NCBI GenBank assembly: GCA_023150915.1
Contig: JAKLKA010000073.1
Location: forward strand, 1 to 34,953
Direction: 5' to 3'
DNA length: 34,953 bases
DNA from: Polyangiaceae bacterium
GTDB taxonomy: Bacteria > Myxococcota_A > Polyangia > Polyangiales > Polyangiaceae
Shown here: piece by piece, positions 16,363 to 26,615 of the stretch
Position numbering within the stretch: the first letter of the stretch is position 1
Layout of the letters: each line of letters begins with the position of its first letter
Translations under genes and position numbers: made by a program
Notes under the pieces: generated by a model
What the model was told of the DNA's origin: nothing
The model's input: the letters and a program-made list of their open reading frames with translations, nothing else
Database searches by the model: none

Positions 16363-17904
16363 ATGAAGATCACTTGCCAGTCATGTGGCGCGAAATACGC
16401 GATTGCGGACGAGAAGGTCCGAGGTCGCCGCGTCAAGGTTCGCTGCAAAGGCTGCAACGAGCCCATCGTCGTAGACGGCTACACCGAGCCGGATCAGTTC
16501 GGCGCCGACGCCGGCAGCGCCGCGGCGGGTGGCAACGCCGACACGTGGAGCGTCAACCTGAGCGAGACCGACCAGCGCTCGATGACCACTCACGAGATCG
16601 TCGATGCGTGGAACGCGGGGCAGATCCCGGCCGACGCCTTCGTGTGGAAAGAGGGCATGGGCGACTGGCTGCCGCTGGCCTCGGCACCCGAGCTGACTCC
16701 GTACCTGTCGGCGCCCCAGCACTCGGCGCCGGTGCAGGCCGAGCCCGAGCCGGCGCCCGCGCCGGCGCCCGCGTTCGGCTTCTCGCCGCCGGCCGGGCAG
16801 GTCGCGGCGCGCGTCGAGAAGAGCCGGGGCGCGGCAGACATCTTCGGCAGCGCCGCGCTGGCTGGCTCGGACGGCGATGTCGCGGCGCCCGCAGAGGCTG
16901 CTTACGACGCGCAGCCCACCGGTGCGAGGAACGAGAACTCGGTCCTGTTCTCGCTCGACGCGCTCAAGGCGGGCGTGGGCCCAGCCGCCAAGGCGGCGGC
17001 CCCCTCGCCACGCGGGAGGGCACAGCCCGCCCACGAGGAGAAGGCCGATCTCGACGACATCATGAACATGGGCGGCGGCGGCATGGGTGGGCCGCTGTTC
17101 GGCATGGGCGCCAACCAAGCCCTGCTCTCGGCTCCGCCGCCTCCGCCCGATCCGCCGCCGCGCCCCAGCATTCCGAGCGAGATGCCCGCGGCGTTCGGCA
17201 GCATGCCGCCCCCGGCCTACGCGCAGCCGAAGAAGAGCAACGCCATGATCTTCGTCGTCGGCGGCGGCGTGGCGTTGCTGGCCGTGATCGCCATCGTGAT
17301 CGGCGTGTTCGCGCTGCGCAGCGGAAAGGCCGAAGAAGCCAAGGCCGAGGTCAAAGACAAGGGCTCGGAGAGCGGGAAGAGCGGCAGCGCCAGCCCCGAC
17401 ACGAAGAAGGAAGAGCGGCCCAGCGACGGCGACAAGAAGCCGGAGGAAGCCAAGGCGGGCGACCCGTCGGCCGCCCCGGCGGCCTCTGGCGGCGAAAAGA
17501 AAGAAGTCACCGAAGAGGAAAAGAAGCGCTTCGCCGAGGCGATGAAGAAGAAGGAAGAAGAGGCCGGCAAGAAGCCCGAAGAGAAGAAGGAAGAGCCGAC
17601 CGCGAAGAAGGAAGAGCCTTCGACCGGTGTCGCTTCGTTCAACAAGGGGGCGGCCATCGCCGCCCTCGGCGCCGCCGCGGCCCAGGCCTCTGGCTGCAAG
17701 CGCCCGGGCGGCCCTACCGGCGGCGGCAAGGCAGTCGTCACCTTCGCGCCTTCGGGTCGTGTCACCACCGCCAACGTCAGCGGTGGCGAGTATCCAGGCA
17801 CGCCGGTGGGCAGCTGCGTGGCGGGCGTGTTCCGTCGCGCTCAGGTCCCCGCGTTCCAGGGGGATCCGGTCACGGTGAGCAAGGCGTTCAGCATCTCACC
17901 GTGA
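16363..17904 (+). CDS. AgmX/GltJ-like protein: zinc ribbon, GYF, TM, TonB-like C-terminus
   Basis: 513 residues. The N-terminus is an MJ0042-type zinc ribbon (C5, C8, C28, C31: MKITCQSCGAKYAIADEKVR then VKVRCKGC). A GYF_2 domain follows at 61-111 (TWSVNL..., VWKEGMGDWLPL). A long Ala/Pro linker leads to one transmembrane helix at about 294-317, then a Lys/Glu-rich stretch of 100 residues and a C-terminal domain (425-513). That domain has GCKRPGG, a GRVTTANVSG strand and GSCVAGVFRRAQVPAF, the pattern of AgmX/PglI C-terminal domains, which resemble TonB. In Myxococcus xanthus AgmX (GltJ) has this same domain order and links the cytoplasmic motility regulator to the envelope. Here it stands alone, with no other glt gene in the window, so it may be a paralog of different function. 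Confidence 0.88.
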   Translation: MKITCQSCGAKYAIADEKVRGRRVKVRCKGCNEPIVVDGYTEPDQFGADAGSAAAGGNADTWSVNLSETDQRSMTTHEIVDAWNAGQIPADAFVWKEGMGDWLPLASAPELTPYLSAPQHSAPVQAEPEPAPAPAPAFGFSPPAGQVAARVEKSRGAADIFGSAALAGSDGDVAAPAEAAYDAQPTGARNENSVLFSLDALKAGVGPAAKAAAPSPRGRAQPAHEEKADLDDIMNMGGGGMGGPLFGMGANQALLSAPPPPPDPPPRPSIPSEMPAAFGSMPPPAYAQPKKSNAMIFVVGGGVALLAVIAIVIGVFALRSGKAEEAKAEVKDKGSESGKSGSASPDTKKEERPSDGDKKPEEAKAGDPSAAPAASGGEKKEVTEEEKKRFAEAMKKKEEEAGKKPEEKKEEPTAKKEEPSTGVASFNKGAAIAALGAAAAQASGCKRPGGPTGGGKAVVTFAPSGRVTTANVSGGEYPGTPVGSCVAGVFRRAQVPAFQGDPVTVSKAFSISP

Positions 17905-17940
17905 GCTTGGGTGCCAAGCGGGCGTCGGGTGACGCCCGCT
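17905..17940. terminator. Two overlapping hairpins between convergent genes
   Basis: GCTTGG (17905-17910), loop GTG, CCAAGC (17914-17919) forms a 6-bp stem. AGCGGGCGTC (17917-17926), loop GGGT, GACGCCCGCT (17931-17940) forms a perfect 10-bp stem. The two share AGC (17917-17919), so they exclude each other. Located just after the AgmX-like stop and 12 bases before the Kazal gene stop, it probably ends transcription from both sides. No U tract. Confidence 0.7.
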
Positions 17941-17951
17941 CGCGCAGCGGG

Positions 17952-19286
17952 TCAAGGGGTGACGCAGCCGCAGCCGCACTCGTTCGAGAACGAGACGGCG
18001 GGCGGCGTGCAGTAGTACTTCACCAGCATGCACTTTTCGGGGCTCTGCGCGGCCCAGGTCTTCTTCGGATCGGTGTAGTCGCAGAGCGGCTTGCAAGCAC
18101 CGGCGGTGTAGTAACCCTTGCTCTCGCCCGCGCTGCCGGCGTCGGCCATGACCGCGCCCTGGAAGCCACACGCGCTCGAGTAGGTCTTGGGCGCCTCGCT
18201 CTTGATCGTGCCGCACACCGGCTTGTAAATCGCGGGGCACGCCACCGGCTCGTCGCAGTGACCGCCGCGGATCTCGGAGCTGGACAGGTTCGAGAGCACC
18301 GAGCCGAGCCACGACTCGGCCTCGCCCTTGGCGTCGAAGTTCTTCACGTAGACGGTGGGTGAATTCACGTCCGGCGGGCTGAGCCAGCCGATGGCGCAAT
18401 ACCCATCGGGACACGCGCCAGCCCAGAACTTACCCTTGCTCTCGCCACTGGAGCCGGCGGCGGTGCGCACCACCTTCTGGAACTCGCACAGGCTGGTGTA
18501 GGTGGCCTCTTTGTCGGTGGCGATCGGAACGCCGCACACCGGCGGGTCGGTGGCCGGGCACGCCTTTGCGTTCTTCGACTCGCAGCTGCCATAGCCCACG
18601 CCGCTGGCATTGACCTCGGGGTCGGCCTTCACCCACGCCTCGGCCGCGGCCATGTCGTCGTGGGCGAAGTTCTTGGCGTAGTAGCGGCCGTCGGTGGTGG
18701 TGTATTCCGCGCAGATGGGCAGGTCGACGCAGATGCCGGTCTTGCACGGCGCCTGCTTGCACATCGGCAGCGCGCAGGCCTTGCCAAGACCGCAGTCGGC
18801 GTCCACGTTGCACTCTTTCGAGCACGCGGCCGAGAGGGTGTAGGAATAGCTGGTGTGCACCTTCTCGTACCAAACCGGCGAGACGAAGACCCAGTAGTCG
18901 CCGGCCGTGGCCAGCTGGGCAGACAGCGTCACTTCACCCGTGGTCGAGTGCTTCCAGTCGACGAGCTTGCCGCTCGAGTCGAGCACCATCAAGAACGCGC
19001 CCAGCTGCTTGGGCCAGCTGGCGTTGACGGTGAAGGTCGCTTCGGTGGCAACGTTGGCCGAGAAGCGATAGACGTGACGCCGGCTCTTCGGCTTCACGCT
19101 GTTCTTCAGGCCACCGGTCTGGCAGTCGAAGTCCCAGTCGTAGTAGCGCCAGCCGCCCGCGAAGTGCGTCTCTTCACCCAGGGCGCTGGTGGGCTCGCTC
19201 TCTTCCGGGGCCTCGGCAGTTGCCGCGCAGCCCGCGAGGGACGCGAGAGAGAGTCCGAAACCGACCAAGAAAGCTCTTTTCAACAT
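17952..19286 (-). CDS. Lipoprotein with two Kazal-like protease-inhibitor domains
   Basis: 444 residues. Signal peptide ends LASLAGC (C20). Residues 35-155 are beta-rich and resemble a PPC/jelly-roll module (HVYRFSANVATEATFTVNAS, GDYWVFVSP). A Cys-rich connector follows. Two Kazal-like units begin ACPATDPPVCGVP and ACPAIYKPVCGTI; each then shows the YTSLCEF/YSSACGF core and ends ESKGKFW-AGAC or ESKGYYT-AGAC. Kazal domains inhibit serine proteases, so a surface-exposed inhibitor is the likely role, perhaps self-protection by a predatory bacterium. Between and after them lie repeats with YYAKNF/YVKNFDAKGEAESW that look like a second duplicated element. AAGGTGG precedes the ATG. A strong promoter with palindrome lies upstream. 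Confidence 0.86.
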   Translation of the reverse strand: MLKRAFLVGFGLSLASLAGCAATAEAPEESEPTSALGEETHFAGGWRYYDWDFDCQTGGLKNSVKPKSRRHVYRFSANVATEATFTVNASWPKQLGAFLMVLDSSGKLVDWKHSTTGEVTLSAQLATAGDYWVFVSPVWYEKVHTSYSYTLSAACSKECNVDADCGLGKACALPMCKQAPCKTGICVDLPICAEYTTTDGRYYAKNFAHDDMAAAEAWVKADPEVNASGVGYGSCESKNAKACPATDPPVCGVPIATDKEATYTSLCEFQKVVRTAAGSSGESKGKFWAGACPDGYCAIGWLSPPDVNSPTVYVKNFDAKGEAESWLGSVLSNLSSSEIRGGHCDEPVACPAIYKPVCGTIKSEAPKTYSSACGFQGAVMADAGSAGESKGYYTAGACKPLCDYTDPKKTWAAQSPEKCMLVKYYCTPPAVSFSNECGCGCVTP

Positions 19287-19322
19287 GGCGTACCACCTTT
19301 TGGAGCCGGCCCCCTGACAGGC

Positions 19323-19336
19323 CCCTACATGTAGGG
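19323..19336. promoter_or_regulatory. 14-base perfect palindrome at predicted transcription start
   Basis: CCCTACATGTAGGG reads the same on both strands. It lies immediately after the predicted -10 of the Kazal-lipoprotein promoter, covering about +1 to +14. It is nested inside a wider inverted repeat (TGACAGG at 19315-19321, CCTGTCA at 19365-19371). Either an operator for a repressor or a 5'-UTR hairpin. Confidence 0.6.
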
Positions 19337-19343
19337 TGAGCGG

Positions 19344-19372
19344 GGTCTACGCCCCTGCCTCGGCCCTGTCAA
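19344..19372 (-). promoter_or_regulatory. Sigma70-type promoter of the Kazal lipoprotein gene
   Basis: On the minus strand TTGACA (19372-19367, perfect -35), 17-base spacer, TAGACC (19349-19344, 3 of 6). Predicted start near 19337, giving a 5' leader of about 50 bases before ATG 19286. It lies between the RecD2 and Kazal genes, so the latter has its own promoter. Confidence 0.55.
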
Positions 19373-19399
19373 GCCACGATAACGCATCGCGCTATTCGG

Positions 19400-21574
19400 C
19401 TACTTTCCGCTGGTTTCTCGGAGGCGCTCGCGCAGGCGGGTGCTGCGCTCTTCGCGCCGGACTTCAGACAGGGCGAGCCGGAGCGCCCGCGGGTCGGTGA
19501 CCACCACGCACAGCCGCTTGGCGCGCGTCACCGCGGTGTAGAGCAAGTTGCGGCTGAGCATCACGAAGTGCGCCGCCGACAGCAAGAGCACCACCGCCGG
19601 GTACTCGCTGCCCTGGCTCTTGTGGATGCTGGTGGCGTACGCGAGCGTCAAGCTCTCGAGATCGGTGTCTTCCAGATCCACCTCGCGCCCGTCGAAGCGC
19701 ACCCGCACCCGTCGCTCGGCCGGGTCGACCGCGACGACCACCCCGAGGTCGCCGTTGTACACGTCGCGCTCGTAGTCGTTCTTGGTCTGCATCACCTTGT
19801 CGCCCACGCGCAGCTTCTGCCCGCGCGACTCGAGGAACGGCCCTTCGGGGTTGAGCGCTGCTTGAAGCTTCTCGTTCAGCACCTGCGTTCCCGCGGGCCC
19901 ACGGTGCATCGGGGTGAGCACCTGAATGTCGCTCACCGGGTCGAGCCCGAATCGCTTCGCGATGCGCTTGGCCGCGAGATCGACGACCAGCGTCGCCGCC
20001 TCTTCCGGGTCGCGACGCTGCACCACGAAGAAGTCCGCGCCGGGTGACTCGGCATCGGCGCTCACCGGCGGCTCGCCCACCAGAATGCGGTGGGCGTTGT
20101 CGACGATCCTACTCTGGCTACCCTGGCGGAAGATCTCGTTCAGGCGCACGACGCGCACGGCCCGGCTGTCGATCAGATCGCGTAGCAGCGCGCCCGGCCC
20201 CACGCTGGGAAGCTGGTCGGCGTCGCCCACGATCACCCAGCGGGCCGGCGACGGAATGGCAGACACCAGCGCCGTTCCCAGCGGCAGATCGATCATCGAT
20301 GCCTCGTCCACGATCACGGCATCCACGTCGAGCGGGGTGCCGGCGTTGCGCTGGAACTGGGCCGAGCGCGGCTCGAACTCGAGCAAGCGGTGAAGGGTGG
20401 TGGCCTCGCGCCCGGTGGCTTCCGACAGCCGTTTTGCAGCCCGCCCGGTGGGCGCGGCCAGCCGGGTCGACAGCCGGGCGGCCTCGAACACGCTGAGCAC
20501 CGCCCGCACGATGGTGGTCTTGCCCACGCCCGGGCCGCCGGTGATGACCAGCACCTTCTCGCTCGCGGCGGCCTCGACCGCGGCGCGCTGCGCCGGCGCC
20601 AGCGACAGGCTGCGGCGCTTCTCGAACGCCTCGACGGCGGCATCGAGCCCGGCAAGGCGCGGGGCGGGGGTGGCCAAGAGCCGCCGCAGGTTCTGGGCGA
20701 AGCTGACCTCGGCCGCGTGCAGCCGCCAGAGAAACGCGAAGTCGTCTTCGACCACCACCCGCTCGCTGGCGCGCAGCGCGTCCACCGCGGCTTCCACGTG
20801 CGCGCCGTCGATCTCCAGCATCTGCGCCGAACGCTCGACCAGCACCGAGCGCGGCACCGCCACGTGCCCTTGCTCGGACAGCGAGCCCAGCTCGTGCAGC
20901 ACACCGGCCTGAGCGCGCTCGGGGTGATCGCCCGCGATGCCCAGCGAGCGGGCGATGCGGTCGGCCGTCTTGAAGCCCACGCCGTGCACCTCGAGCGCCA
21001 AGCGATACGGCGAGCGCTGCACCACGCTGGCGCTCTTGTCGCCGTAACGCTGAAAGATGCGCGCGGCGAGGGCCGGCGAGGCGCCGTGGGTCTGGAGCAG
21101 CACCATCACGTTGGCGATGGCCCGGTGTTCCACCCACGCCTTCTTGATCTCGGCAACGCGTCGCGCGCCGATCCCCGGCACCCGGCCCAGGCGCTCGGGA
21201 TCGGTGTCGAGCACCTTCAGCGAATCCATGCCGAAGGTCGCCACGATGCGCTTGGCGAACCCCGGACCGATCCCCGGGATCAACCCCGACCCCAGGTACT
21301 TCTCCAGCCCCACCAGGGTGGCCGGCTCGATGGCCACCAGCGACTCGGCGCGGAACTGCTCGCCCCGCCGCGGGTCGCGAACGAAGTCACCGGTGACCCG
21401 CACGCGCGTTCCGGGGCCGACCGCCTGGAAGTTCCCGACCACCACGATGGGGCCGGGTTGCTTCGGATCGTCGAGCGCGCCGACACGCAGCACCCGAAAG
21501 CCCGACTCTTCGTTCTCGAAGGTCACGCGCTCGACTTGACCGGTGAGGGTGGTCGACACCGGGGGAAGGTACAC
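19400..21574 (-). CDS. recD2: RecD2-type ATP-dependent DNA helicase
   Basis: 724 residues, standard length. RecD2 is a 5'-3' superfamily 1B helicase acting outside RecBCD in DNA repair. An N-terminal OB-like segment (TLTGQVERVTFENEESGFRV) and helix-hairpin-helix elements (GIGPGFAKRI near 101, VPGIGARRV near 132, HGVGFKTADRIA near 197) precede the motor. Walker A TGGPGVGKTT is at 345-354, motif Ia AAPTGRAAKRL, Walker B IVDEASMID (421-429), the GDADQLPSVGPG motif, and a C-terminal YATSIHKSQGSEYPAV UvrD-C-like motif. Start is GTG 21574. The divergent MYXO-CTERM gene starts 108 bases away. No RecB or RecC is seen in this window, consistent with the RecBC-independent type. Confidence 0.96.
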   Translation of the reverse strand: MYLPPVSTTLTGQVERVTFENEESGFRVLRVGALDDPKQPGPIVVVGNFQAVGPGTRVRVTGDFVRDPRRGEQFRAESLVAIEPATLVGLEKYLGSGLIPGIGPGFAKRIVATFGMDSLKVLDTDPERLGRVPGIGARRVAEIKKAWVEHRAIANVMVLLQTHGASPALAARIFQRYGDKSASVVQRSPYRLALEVHGVGFKTADRIARSLGIAGDHPERAQAGVLHELGSLSEQGHVAVPRSVLVERSAQMLEIDGAHVEAAVDALRASERVVVEDDFAFLWRLHAAEVSFAQNLRRLLATPAPRLAGLDAAVEAFEKRRSLSLAPAQRAAVEAAASEKVLVITGGPGVGKTTIVRAVLSVFEAARLSTRLAAPTGRAAKRLSEATGREATTLHRLLEFEPRSAQFQRNAGTPLDVDAVIVDEASMIDLPLGTALVSAIPSPARWVIVGDADQLPSVGPGALLRDLIDSRAVRVVRLNEIFRQGSQSRIVDNAHRILVGEPPVSADAESPGADFFVVQRRDPEEAATLVVDLAAKRIAKRFGLDPVSDIQVLTPMHRGPAGTQVLNEKLQAALNPEGPFLESRGQKLRVGDKVMQTKNDYERDVYNGDLGVVVAVDPAERRVRVRFDGREVDLEDTDLESLTLAYATSIHKSQGSEYPAVVLLLSAAHFVMLSRNLLYTAVTRAKRLCVVVTDPRALRLALSEVRREERSTRLRERLRETSGK

Positions 21575-21681
21575 CGCGTTTCAGCTCACGGACACCGGGT
21601 TTCGGCCCCGGCGCCGCCCGAAGACCCCGCCGTTGCCCCGTCGGCGGCCGCCCGGGATGCGACCGCTGCTACCCTTCCCCC

Positions 21682-22438
21682 ATGCTGCACCTTGGAGCAA
21701 AGAGCGTCGGGCCGGCCACGGTGATGATCGCAGCGCTGCTCGCGTCGAAAGCGGCGCAGGCAGCGCCGACCTGCGGCACGCTGGCCGAGTTCAACGCGGC
21801 CATGAGCGCGAGCGGCACGAGCTCGGACGACGTCACGCTGACCTTCGACCTGACCGGGGCAAACCCCGCGGATTATCCCAACGGCAAGGGCGCGCTGGCT
21901 CACATGCGCAACACCGCCTGCAGTGGCGGCGCTCAAGACGCGGTGATCAAGCTCTATGGCACCTCGACCCCGCTCAACACTGCCCACCCGCCGGGGTGGG
22001 TCGACCGCCCACGCGCCTCACGTCGTGCTGAGCTACGACACCGTCGACGGCGACAGCGACGGCACGCCGGACGGTCCCGATTGCGACGACAGCGACCCCG
22101 CCGTGCACCCCGGGGCTGCCGAGCAGTGCAACGGCCACGACGACAACTGCGATGGTAGCAGCGACGAGGGTTGCCCGGGCGGCGGCTCGGGCGGCTCGGG
22201 CGCCGGCGGCTCGGGCGGCTCCGGCGTCACGCCCGACGTCACCAACGAAGAGGACTCGAGCTCGGGGTGCGCTTGCCGCAGCGCGCGACCCGCGACGGAC
22301 ACCTGGCCGGCGGGCCTCGTCGGCGTGGGTGCGCTCTGGTCGCTGGCGATCCGAAGGCGTCAGGGCGCCATCTTGAAACGACGCAGCCGCACCACGTCCC
22401 CGTCGCGCCAGGCCACGAGCAGACGGTCATCGGCGTAG
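21682..22438 (+). pseudogene. MopE-type metal-binding, MYXO-CTERM-like protein with frameshift
   Basis: The first frame from ATG 21682 encodes a signal peptide (VMIAALLASKAAQA before APTCG) and about 105 plausible residues, then runs into Arg-rich nonsense. From about 22010 the next frame (shifted by one base) is clearly coding. It reads HVVLSYDTVDGDSDG, the MopE-type motif DCDDSDPAVHPGAAEQCNGH then DDNCDG, a Gly/Ser linker, and GCACRSARP followed by a helix and RRR. That last part matches the MYXO-CTERM sorting signal (GC, helix, Arg cluster). An extra C in the CGCCC run near 22006-22010 would explain the shift. The second frame runs on to 22438, 79 bases into the convergent gene, so the 3' end may also be damaged. 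Sequencing error or true decay cannot be told apart here. Confidence 0.75.
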
Positions 22439-23936: not shown

Positions 23937-26615
23937 ATGGCTCTTTCCCAGCGTCACCACGCGCGCTGCTCGTGCGCTGCGGCCGCCGCCGCCCCGTTTG
24001 CTCTGGCCGGCACCGAGCGCAAGTACGAGCGCGACCGCCCGTTTCGCATCGTGCACCTGGCCGTGGACCTGCAGCTCCACTTCGCGAAGAAGTCGGTCTC
24101 TGGCTCCGCGACCCTCGAGTTCGAACGGGTCTCGCCCACCGACGACGCGCTGGTGCTGGACGCCCTGGGATTCGAGCTGGGCCGCGTGCGCATCGACACC
24201 GGCGACGGCTGGTCCGACGTTCCCCACGAGTACGACGGCGACCAAATCCGGATCAGCGTGCCGACGCGGGTCGAGAAGGGCAAGGTGGAAGTCGACTACC
24301 GTGCGACCCCGCGCCGCGGCCTCTACTTCCTGGCGCCCGATGCGGTGGTGAAGGACCGCCCCGAGCAGGTGTGGAGCCAGTGCCAAGACGAGGACGCTCG
24401 CCACTTCGTTCCGTGTCACGACAAGCCCCACGTGAAGATGACCACCGAGATGCGGGTGCGCGTCGCCGAGGGCATGACGGTGCTGTCCAACGGCGAGCTG
24501 GTGTTCAAGGACACGCCGCGGGGCGCCAGCCCCTGGGTCTTCCACTTCAAGATGAACCAGCCGCACCCCAGCTATCTGCTCACGCTGGTGGCGGGTCAGT
24601 TCGACGTGATCGAAGACCGGGACGCGGTGGTGGGCGAGGGGCGGGCGGTGCCGGTGACGTATTGGGTGCCGCCCGGGAAGAAGCCGGACGGTCTGCGGGC
24701 CTTCTCGGAGACGCCGCGCATGATCGAGCTGTTCAGCAAGCTCACCGGCGTGCCCTACCCCTGGAGCCGGTATTCACAGGTGGTGGTGAGCGATTTCATC
24801 TTCGGCGGCATGGAAAACACCACGGCCACCACGATGTACGAGCACATCTTGCTCGACGCACGGGCCGCCATCGACGTGGTCAGCCACGATCTGGTGGCCC
24901 ACGAGCTGGCGCACCAGTGGTTCGGCGACTTCGTGACCTGCCGAGACTGGTCCCACGGCTGGCTGAACGAGGGGTTCGCCACCTTCTTCGAGCAGGTCGA
25001 GCGCGAAGACCGGCTGGGGCGCGACGAATACCTCTACGGCATCGAGGCCGAGCTCGACGCCTACACGACGGAAGCCAGCGGGCGCTATCAGCGCCCGATC
25101 GTGTGCCGTGACTACGCGCTGCCGATCGATCTCTTCGACCGCCACCTGTACGAGAAGGGCTGCCTGGTCTTGCACATGCTGCGGACCGAGCTGGGGGACG
25201 CGACGTTCTGGAAGGGCGTCCACGGCTACCTCGAGCGCCACGCCCACGGCATCGTCGAGACCAACGACCTGATGCGCGCCCTCGAGTCGGTCAGCGGCCG
25301 CTCGCTCGAGCGCTTCTTCGACGCCTGGGTGTATCGGCCGGGGCACCCCGTGGTGAAGGTCAAGGTCAGCTACGAAGACGGGCTGCTCACGGTGGGCGTG
25401 AAGCAGACCCAGAAGACCGGCGAGACCGCCGTGTTCAGCTTCGATCTGGAGGTGGAGGTGGCCGACAAAGCGGGCCGCACCCGCCGCCACAAGAAGACCG
25501 TGACCAGCGAGGCCGACGCGCTGGTGGTGGCGTGCCACGAACGCCCGGCATGGGTCGGCGTCGACCCCGAGCTGCGGATCGTGGGTGAGGTCACCCTCGA
25601 GGCACCGGCCGAGATGCTGCGCGCCCAGCTGGACGGCGGCACCTCGGCGCGCCTGCGCTGGTCGGCGGCGCAAGCCCTGGGCAAGCGCTTCGACCTGCCG
25701 ACCCTTCGCGCGCTGGACAAGGCCTTGTCGAAGCCCGGTGAGGCCTGGATGGTGCGTGCCGAAGCGGCGACCGCGCTGGGCAAGATCCGCGGCGAGCACG
25801 CGCTCGAGATCTTGCTCGACCAGGTCGGGGTGGAGCACCCGAAGGTGCGCCGGGCCGTCGCCCGCGCGCTGGGCAACTTCCGCGACCCGAAGGCCGCCAA
25901 GGCGCTCGAGAAGCTGGCGCGCAAAGACGAGAGCTACCTGGTCGCGGCCGACGCGCTGCGGGGACTGGGGAAGACCCGCCAGAAGCGCGCCCTCGAGACG
26001 CTGCGCGATCTCTGCGACAAGAAGTCGTGGGCCGACGTCACCCGCGCGGGCGCTCTGGATGGCATGGCGTTGCTGCGCGACGAAGACGCGGTGGACGACG
26101 TGATGAAGCGCACGCGCTACGGCTTCCCGACTCGCGGGCGGCGCGCGGCCATCTCGGCCTTGGCGCGGCTGTCGGACACGCGCAAGGCGCGACAGCACCT
26201 CGAGGACCTGCTGGACGACGCCGACCCGCATCTGCGCATCGACGCCGTGAACGCCCTGGTCACGCTGGGTGACGCGCGGAGCCGCGGCCCCTTGCGCCGC
26301 GCGCTGGAGCGGGACCTGGACGGTCGCGTGGCCCGACGCATTCGCGAGGCGCTGCGCGACCTCGGCGACGCGAGCTCGAACGAACGCAAGCGCGCCCTGG
26401 ACGACGTCGAGGCGCTGAAGACCGAGCTTCAAGAGGTGCAGCTTCGGCTGACCAAGCTCGAGCAGAAGAAGAAGGCCAAGCCCGAGCCGCCCGAAGAAAA
26501 GCCCGAGCGCCACCCGCCGGCCCCCGCGAAGAAGCCCGTGAAACACCCCAGCGAGCCCCCGAAGAAGGCCGCCACGCGCGCCAAGAGGCCTTCGCCGAAG
26601 CGGAGGAAGTCATGA
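23937..26615 (+). CDS. M1-family zinc aminopeptidase with C-terminal HEAT repeats
   Basis: 892 residues. M1 enzymes remove N-terminal amino acids from peptides. The substrate-binding GGMEN is at 290-294, the zinc site HELAH at 322-326 and third ligand E345 in WLNEGFATF, exactly 18 residues after the second His. The transition-state tyrosine is in HLYEKGCLVL. After the catalytic core (to about 540) the expected ERAP-type C-domain is replaced by HEAT-like repeats (RLRWSAAQALGKRF, VRRAVARALGNF, LRIDAVNALVTLGD). Then comes a coiled-coil stretch and a Lys/Pro/Glu-rich tail of 50 residues. No clear signal peptide. The stop TGA overlaps the next ATG as ATGA. Related HEAT-M1 proteins are frequent in deltaproteobacterial lineages. 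Confidence 0.94.
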   Translation: MALSQRHHARCSCAAAAAAPFALAGTERKYERDRPFRIVHLAVDLQLHFAKKSVSGSATLEFERVSPTDDALVLDALGFELGRVRIDTGDGWSDVPHEYDGDQIRISVPTRVEKGKVEVDYRATPRRGLYFLAPDAVVKDRPEQVWSQCQDEDARHFVPCHDKPHVKMTTEMRVRVAEGMTVLSNGELVFKDTPRGASPWVFHFKMNQPHPSYLLTLVAGQFDVIEDRDAVVGEGRAVPVTYWVPPGKKPDGLRAFSETPRMIELFSKLTGVPYPWSRYSQVVVSDFIFGGMENTTATTMYEHILLDARAAIDVVSHDLVAHELAHQWFGDFVTCRDWSHGWLNEGFATFFEQVEREDRLGRDEYLYGIEAELDAYTTEASGRYQRPIVCRDYALPIDLFDRHLYEKGCLVLHMLRTELGDATFWKGVHGYLERHAHGIVETNDLMRALESVSGRSLERFFDAWVYRPGHPVVKVKVSYEDGLLTVGVKQTQKTGETAVFSFDLEVEVADKAGRTRRHKKTVTSEADALVVACHERPAWVGVDPELRIVGEVTLEAPAEMLRAQLDGGTSARLRWSAAQALGKRFDLPTLRALDKALSKPGEAWMVRAEAATALGKIRGEHALEILLDQVGVEHPKVRRAVARALGNFRDPKAAKALEKLARKDESYLVAADALRGLGKTRQKRALETLRDLCDKKSWADVTRAGALDGMALLRDEDAVDDVMKRTRYGFPTRGRRAAISALARLSDTRKARQHLEDLLDDADPHLRIDAVNALVTLGDARSRGPLRRALERDLDGRVARRIREALRDLGDASSNERKRALDDVEALKTELQEVQLRLTKLEQKKKAKPEPPEEKPERHPPAPAKKPVKHPSEPPKKAATRAKRPSPKRRKS

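Follow-up and report, generated by a model that had tools for sequence, protein, structure and literature searches.

The closest described parallel to the promoter analysed here is PB, the carB promoter of Myxococcus xanthus. According to PMC8156234, PB is transcribed by the sigma-A RNA polymerase, combines a TTGACA -35 element with a poor, TA-initial -10 element (TACCTC), and is overlapped by a site for the repressors CarA and CarH, with CarA covering about 55 bp between -70 and -19. A good match at -35 together with a poor one at -10 has also been described for the fibA promoter (PMC3509222). We analysed a stretch of 34,953 nucleotides from a member of the Polyangiaceae (contig JAKLKA010000073.1; hereafter the window), in which a lipoprotein gene is preceded by a probable promoter that shares with PB both TTGACA and a weak, TA-initial -10 element. 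A candidate operator at this promoter can be likened to the overlapping repressor site of PB. It differs in that the palindrome concerned, CCCTACATGTAGGG, is shorter, has another sequence and is located at the predicted start and beyond it.

As judged from the sequence comparisons below, the palindrome is a partly conserved, gene-specific start-site element, and the gene control involved is of an ordinary kind. The Myxococcota have been little studied, and the locus adds one comparative case from them, well delimited, in which a start-site element specific to one gene accompanies a promoter of the sigma-A type. It also adds an atypical family of Kazal-like lipoproteins with five cysteines, which is a candidate for protease-inhibition testing. 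Neither the promoter element nor the protein family would alter general understanding.

Organization of the promoter region

An earlier note on this DNA had reported a perfect TTGACA, a 17-base spacing and a 14-base palindrome at the predicted start site, and all of these are confirmed in the minus-strand sequence (Table 1). These elements occupy the 113-bp intergenic stretch between recD2 and the lipoprotein gene, and 36 bases separate CCCTACATGTAGGG from the ATG of the 444-aa reading frame. Promoters of the sigma-A/sigma-70 class have a TTGACA-like -35 element, a -10 element 16-18 bases away and a transcription start 5-9 bases past the latter; the present one belongs here by its spacer of 17, with a -10 element that is weak. 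A consensus scan of positions 17700-21700, which asked for at least 4/6 matches at -10 with the final T, called no promoter. The inverted repeat TGACAGG/CCTGTCA, which had been noted as enclosing the promoter and palindrome, is present as stated, but its left arm is lost in both congeneric orthologues (G001 and G002). A GCGTTAT block just upstream of the -35 element may serve as an activator site or as an upstream element of the promoter. We also considered termination of the upstream recD2 as a role for the palindrome and rejected it: the terminator scan lists no terminator at this position.

Table 1. Features of the lipoprotein locus and its surroundings, numbered by position in the window
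Feature	Position	Strand	Remarks
444-aa lipoprotein gene	17952..19286	(-)	lipobox LAGC, assigned by eye
-35 element TTGACA	19372-19367	(-)	from sequence; perfect, 6/6
Weak -10 element TAGACC	19349-19344	(-)	placed by the 17-base spacer; 3/6 to TATAAT
Start-site element, palindrome CCCTACATGTAGGG	19336-19323	(-)	seven bases past the -10 element
11-base run ACATGTAGGGG	19322..19332	(-)	longest stretch identical across the three congeneric genomes
Enclosing inverted repeat TGACAGG / CCTGTCA	19371-19365 / 19321-19315	(-)	probably incidental
GCGTTAT block	19379-19385	(-)	6 bases upstream of the -35 element; identical in the three congeneric genomes
recD2	19400-21574	(-)	upstream neighbour of the lipoprotein gene; TIGR01448, 810 bits
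M1-family aminopeptidase fused to HEAT repeats	23937-26615	(+)	

The window contains 8 perfect 14-bp palindromes; 30 first-order Markov simulations gave 7.7 on average (range 2-16), and the palindrome by itself is therefore unremarkable. Among 20000 dinucleotide shuffles of the 113-bp intergenic stretch, 235 contained a 14-bp palindrome and 173 contained TTGACA. On the sequence evidence, the significance of the element rests on its conservation and not on the palindrome.

Comparison with homologous upstream regions

Within the genus, we compared the region in its own genome (G000) with that of the orthologues in G001 and G002, three genomes of the genus in all. The orthologous lipoproteins are 87% (G002) and 76% (G001) identical, and both genes lie behind recD2. 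Six upstream blocks, GCGTTAT, GCTTGAC, GGGGCGTA, ACATGTAGGGG, CTGTC and GGCTCC, are the same in all three genomes, and the promoter alignment, which takes in the start codon, has 68 identical columns out of 111. Neutral simulations were run at the rate of the fourfold-degenerate sites of the two flanking genes, where 144/392 are identical in all three genomes. They produced an identical run of 11 or more in 21 of 20000 cases and 68 identical columns in 0 of 20000, statistics that are somewhat favoured by an alignment that maximised identity and took in the start codon. G001 departs from this in the left arm of the palindrome, where it reads CACCCACATG in place of CACCCTACATG, a change that amounts to one missing base by eye and to two substitutions by MAFFT. 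A comparison of orthologous upstream regions, which the earlier note had proposed, thus finds the element again in G001 and G002, but the palindrome is perfect only in G000 and G002 and is imperfect in G001.

Protein matches at E <= 1e-5 were obtained in 22 of 108 genomes of the family, own genus included, and 17 homologous genes were compared in the DNA that precedes them. These comprise the 3 congeneric genes, 11 from other genera of the same family (G072, G064, G022, G019, G074, G076, G024, G065, G073, G070 and G091) and 3 from another family of the order (G043 and two G050 genes). G073, G070 and G091 were counted although their protein matches are partial; matches to the Cys-rich C-terminal tail only were left out, and the lipoprotein signal guided the choice, by eye, of start codons. 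In 11 of the 17 genes TTGAC precedes the start by no more than 160 nt, against 2.0 expected from shuffles, which supports the promoter claimed in the earlier note. Its distance from the start is 72-88 nt in 9 of the 11, 144 nt in G072 and 113 nt in G091; it was not found within 160 nt of the start in G024, G065, G043, both G050 genes and G070. A TA-initial hexamer stands at the 17-base spacing in G000, in G002 (TAGACC), in G001 (TACATG), in G072 (TAGCAG), and in G064 and G022 (TACATC in both), and the best TA hexamer of G019, G074 and G076 is displaced by one base to either side. We consider this very probably a housekeeping promoter of the sigma-A type and the lipoprotein gene's own.

The start-site element was more restricted in its distribution. 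Two other genera carry it in the same arrangement, as TTGACC-N17-TAGCAG-CGCG-CCCTACATGTCGGG in G072 and as TTGACA-N17-TACATC-CGCG-CCTCATGTAGGGG in G064, in both cases 4 bases past the -10 element. Shuffled sequence matched as well in 1/20000 and 6/20000 cases, respectively; both are single-genome figures, and eight outside genomes were tried. Symmetry is broken by one base in G072, and one base is missing by eye from the left arm in G064. The element was not found in G022, which belongs to the same genus as G064, or in G019, G074, G076, G024 and G065. The simple pattern CATGTNGGG matched upstream of 6 of the 17 homologues (the three congeneric genes, G072, G064 and one G050 gene) and was not found upstream in G043, one G050 gene, G073, G070 and G091. 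What had been noted as a perfect palindrome is accordingly an element at the predicted start in five genomes (G000, G002, G001, G072 and G064), but its symmetry is perfect in 2 of the 5 and it is absent in most other homologues. The G050 match (locus L019), in the other family, lies 57 nt before the start and is without TTGAC. Likewise without TTGAC, G070 (L077) shows, by eye, ACATGTAGG and then TCTG at some 30 nt ahead of the start.

Specificity for the lipoprotein gene

A genome-wide search for the palindrome, also suggested in the earlier note, brought no second exact copy: CCCTACATGTAGGG has a single occurrence in the 8.0-Mb genome, and near copies with at most 2 mismatches are not enriched there (13 sites, compared with 18 for the reversed control). 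One copy with a single mismatch, CCCTACCTGTAGGG at G000:C172:11428-11441, precedes a reading frame for a secreted lipoprotein that resembles hydrolases; it is without TTGAC in the preceding 80 bases and is probably a chance match.

Of the patterns that combine promoter and element, TTGACN{25,45}CCTACATGTNGG has 3 matches in 183 genomes of the order (G000, G002 and G072), all before the lipoprotein gene or a homologue, and 0 for the reversed control; it was drawn up with the G072 site already in view, so these counts measure the rarity of the arrangement and are not an independent discovery. A looser composite pattern matched in 9 of 108 genomes, four times at the lipoprotein gene or its homologues (G000, G001, G002 and G064) and elsewhere in five genomes, in one of which (G103) the match precedes a lipoprotein-like start; its reversed control gave 7 matches. 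A model built from the entire upstream sequence and searched in the three congeneric genomes gave the orthologous sites 89-106 bits, and none of the other 17 listed matches exceeded 17 bits. Seven of these 17 were inspected as alignments and 2 for reading frames, one of them lying inside a frame and one before a lipoprotein-like frame. No regulon was found with palindrome mismatches in the own genome, with the upstream model in the genus, or with composite patterns in the genus, family and order. Operators of dimeric repressors are usually, though not obligatorily, repeated elsewhere, ahead of the gene for the regulator or of further target genes. No such copies were found, the composite pattern being confined to the lipoprotein gene and its homologues among the 183 genomes.

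Possible functions of the start-site element

The sequence of the element, its conservation and its gene specificity are observations, and its position is compatible with an operator, a 5' hairpin and initial-sequence effects. We regard an operator as the most likely of these readings, at a probability of roughly 0.45. Transcription would start near 19337-19336, about 7 bases past the -10 element, and the RNA would start with CCCTACATGTAGGGG or immediately ahead of it, CCCTACATGTAGGGG being a cis element that is specific to this gene and retained in several genera. The element would be bound by a protein, probably a dimer whose own gene lies elsewhere, and this protein would repress the lipoprotein gene by blocking open-complex formation or promoter escape. 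A repressor site is the commonest use of such a dyad, which is why the operator is kept first despite the uneven conservation of the two sides. The right side is better kept than the left arm, where the base losses fall. This counts against a strict dimer site, since a dimer operator should resist broken symmetry.

Stem-loops at the 5' end protect mRNA from decay in other bacteria, and the element could act in RNA, as a 5'-terminal hairpin CCCUA-CAUG-UAGGG that shields the message from decay. A short stem-loop of this kind would sit at the very 5' end of the message, as do those of the ompA type, and base losses that break the DNA half-site leave the hairpin arms in place. G000 and G002 fold into the hairpin at -6.1 kcal/mol; in G072 and G064 a C-rich arm and a G-rich arm pair into a stem, with a loop that holds CAUGU in G072 and AUGUAG in G064. 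Unlike ompA-type structures, however, the stem here is weak, and the stability that the earlier note had envisaged for the message is no higher than that of shuffled sequence: of 200 shuffles, 115 folded as well as G000, 82 as well as G002, 134 as well as G001, 29 as well as G072 and 37 as well as G064. Folding of the whole leader gave z = +0.69, G001 prefers another fold, compensatory changes were not seen by eye in the 5 sequences, and Rfam had no match in the window at gathering scores. We find a protective hairpin unlikely.

The chance-level frequency of 14-bp palindromes in the window, the absence of the element from most homologues outside the genus and the lack of another exact 14-mer in the genome would all be expected if the promoter alone mattered and the downstream element reflected shared ancestry and chance, with no function of its own. 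Against this stand the matches in two other genera, as rare in shuffles as given above for eight outside genomes tried, and an identical congeneric run that exceeds expectation at the fourfold-site rate; we hold an element without function to be distinctly unlikely. Less probable still is that the conserved part adjusts early translation or promoter escape, either as an initially transcribed sequence or as a minimal start-stop pair (AUG-UAG) in the leader. The better conservation of the right side, CATGTAGGGG, is in line with such a role, as is ATG followed directly by TAG in G000, G002, G001 and G064 and also in the ACATGTAGG of G070. G072 has ATG TCG instead of ATG TAG, however, ATGTAG is short and missing from many homologues, and no ribosome-binding sequence was noticed by eye before the ATG of the element. 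It is highly improbable that the AUG-UAG pair works inside a tiny 5'-terminal hairpin, where ribosome occupancy would determine how much of the lipoprotein message is made or how stable it is; if true, this would be one-codon leader control in myxobacteria.

The Kazal-like lipoprotein

Classical Kazal inhibitors have a six-cysteine framework with the signature C-x7-C-x6-Y-x3-C-x2,3-C (PROSITE pattern), and their P1 position is two residues after the second cysteine. The secreted, inhibitor-like lipoprotein starts with a lipoprotein signal and an N-terminal part and ends in a Cys-rich tail; between them lie two Kazal-like modules, placed by eye at residues 243-292 and 350-398. It shares with Kazal-type inhibitors (PF00050; ovomucoid third domain) the C-x7-C ... 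Y-x3-C framework and a PVCG motif. It also departs from the classical members: both modules in all three congeneric proteins read C-x7-C-x10 or 11-Y-x3-C, with a longer loop before the tyrosine and the next (fifth) cysteine missing. The P1 residues in G000, G002 and G001 are Ala, Ser and Ser in module 1 and Ala, Ala and Thr in module 2.

The description of the product as a Kazal lipoprotein holds in so far as Kazal_1 (PF00050) scores 25.8 bits, above the Pfam gathering cut-off of 21, but the match (residues 345-375) is one stretch in one module, covers profile positions 2-30, or 29/49, and lacks the fifth cysteine. The Kazal family is listed at E <= 1 for all three congeneric proteins; a genome search at E <= 0.001 listed the gene in G000 and G002 only and missed the G001 orthologue. 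NCBIfam gave no Kazal match in the lipoprotein at E <= 0.1, and a PDB profile search found the ovomucoid third domain weakly (E 0.013). An AlphaFold2 model from two sequences had a mean pLDDT of 38 and was too poor for judging inhibition. Because the fifth cysteine is missing and the P1 residues in the genus are small, inhibition of a serine protease by the lipoprotein is only a guess. The tight repression and the predatory role suggested in the earlier note would likewise be conjectures. If the lipoprotein does inhibit, elastase- or subtilisin-like enzymes are the better candidate targets. Our literature search returned no paper, judged by title, on Kazal proteins of myxobacteria, predatory bacteria or prokaryotic lipoproteins.

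The genome has a second Kazal gene, G000:C257:253-564 (L036, L039), near a contig start, with a CPxxxxPVCGCDGKTYGNEC-type module behind a Gly/Thr/Ala-rich repeat. Within the window itself, the aminopeptidase-HEAT repeat fusion of Table 1 scores 165.9 bits for Peptidase_M1 and 101.6 bits for HEAT_2.
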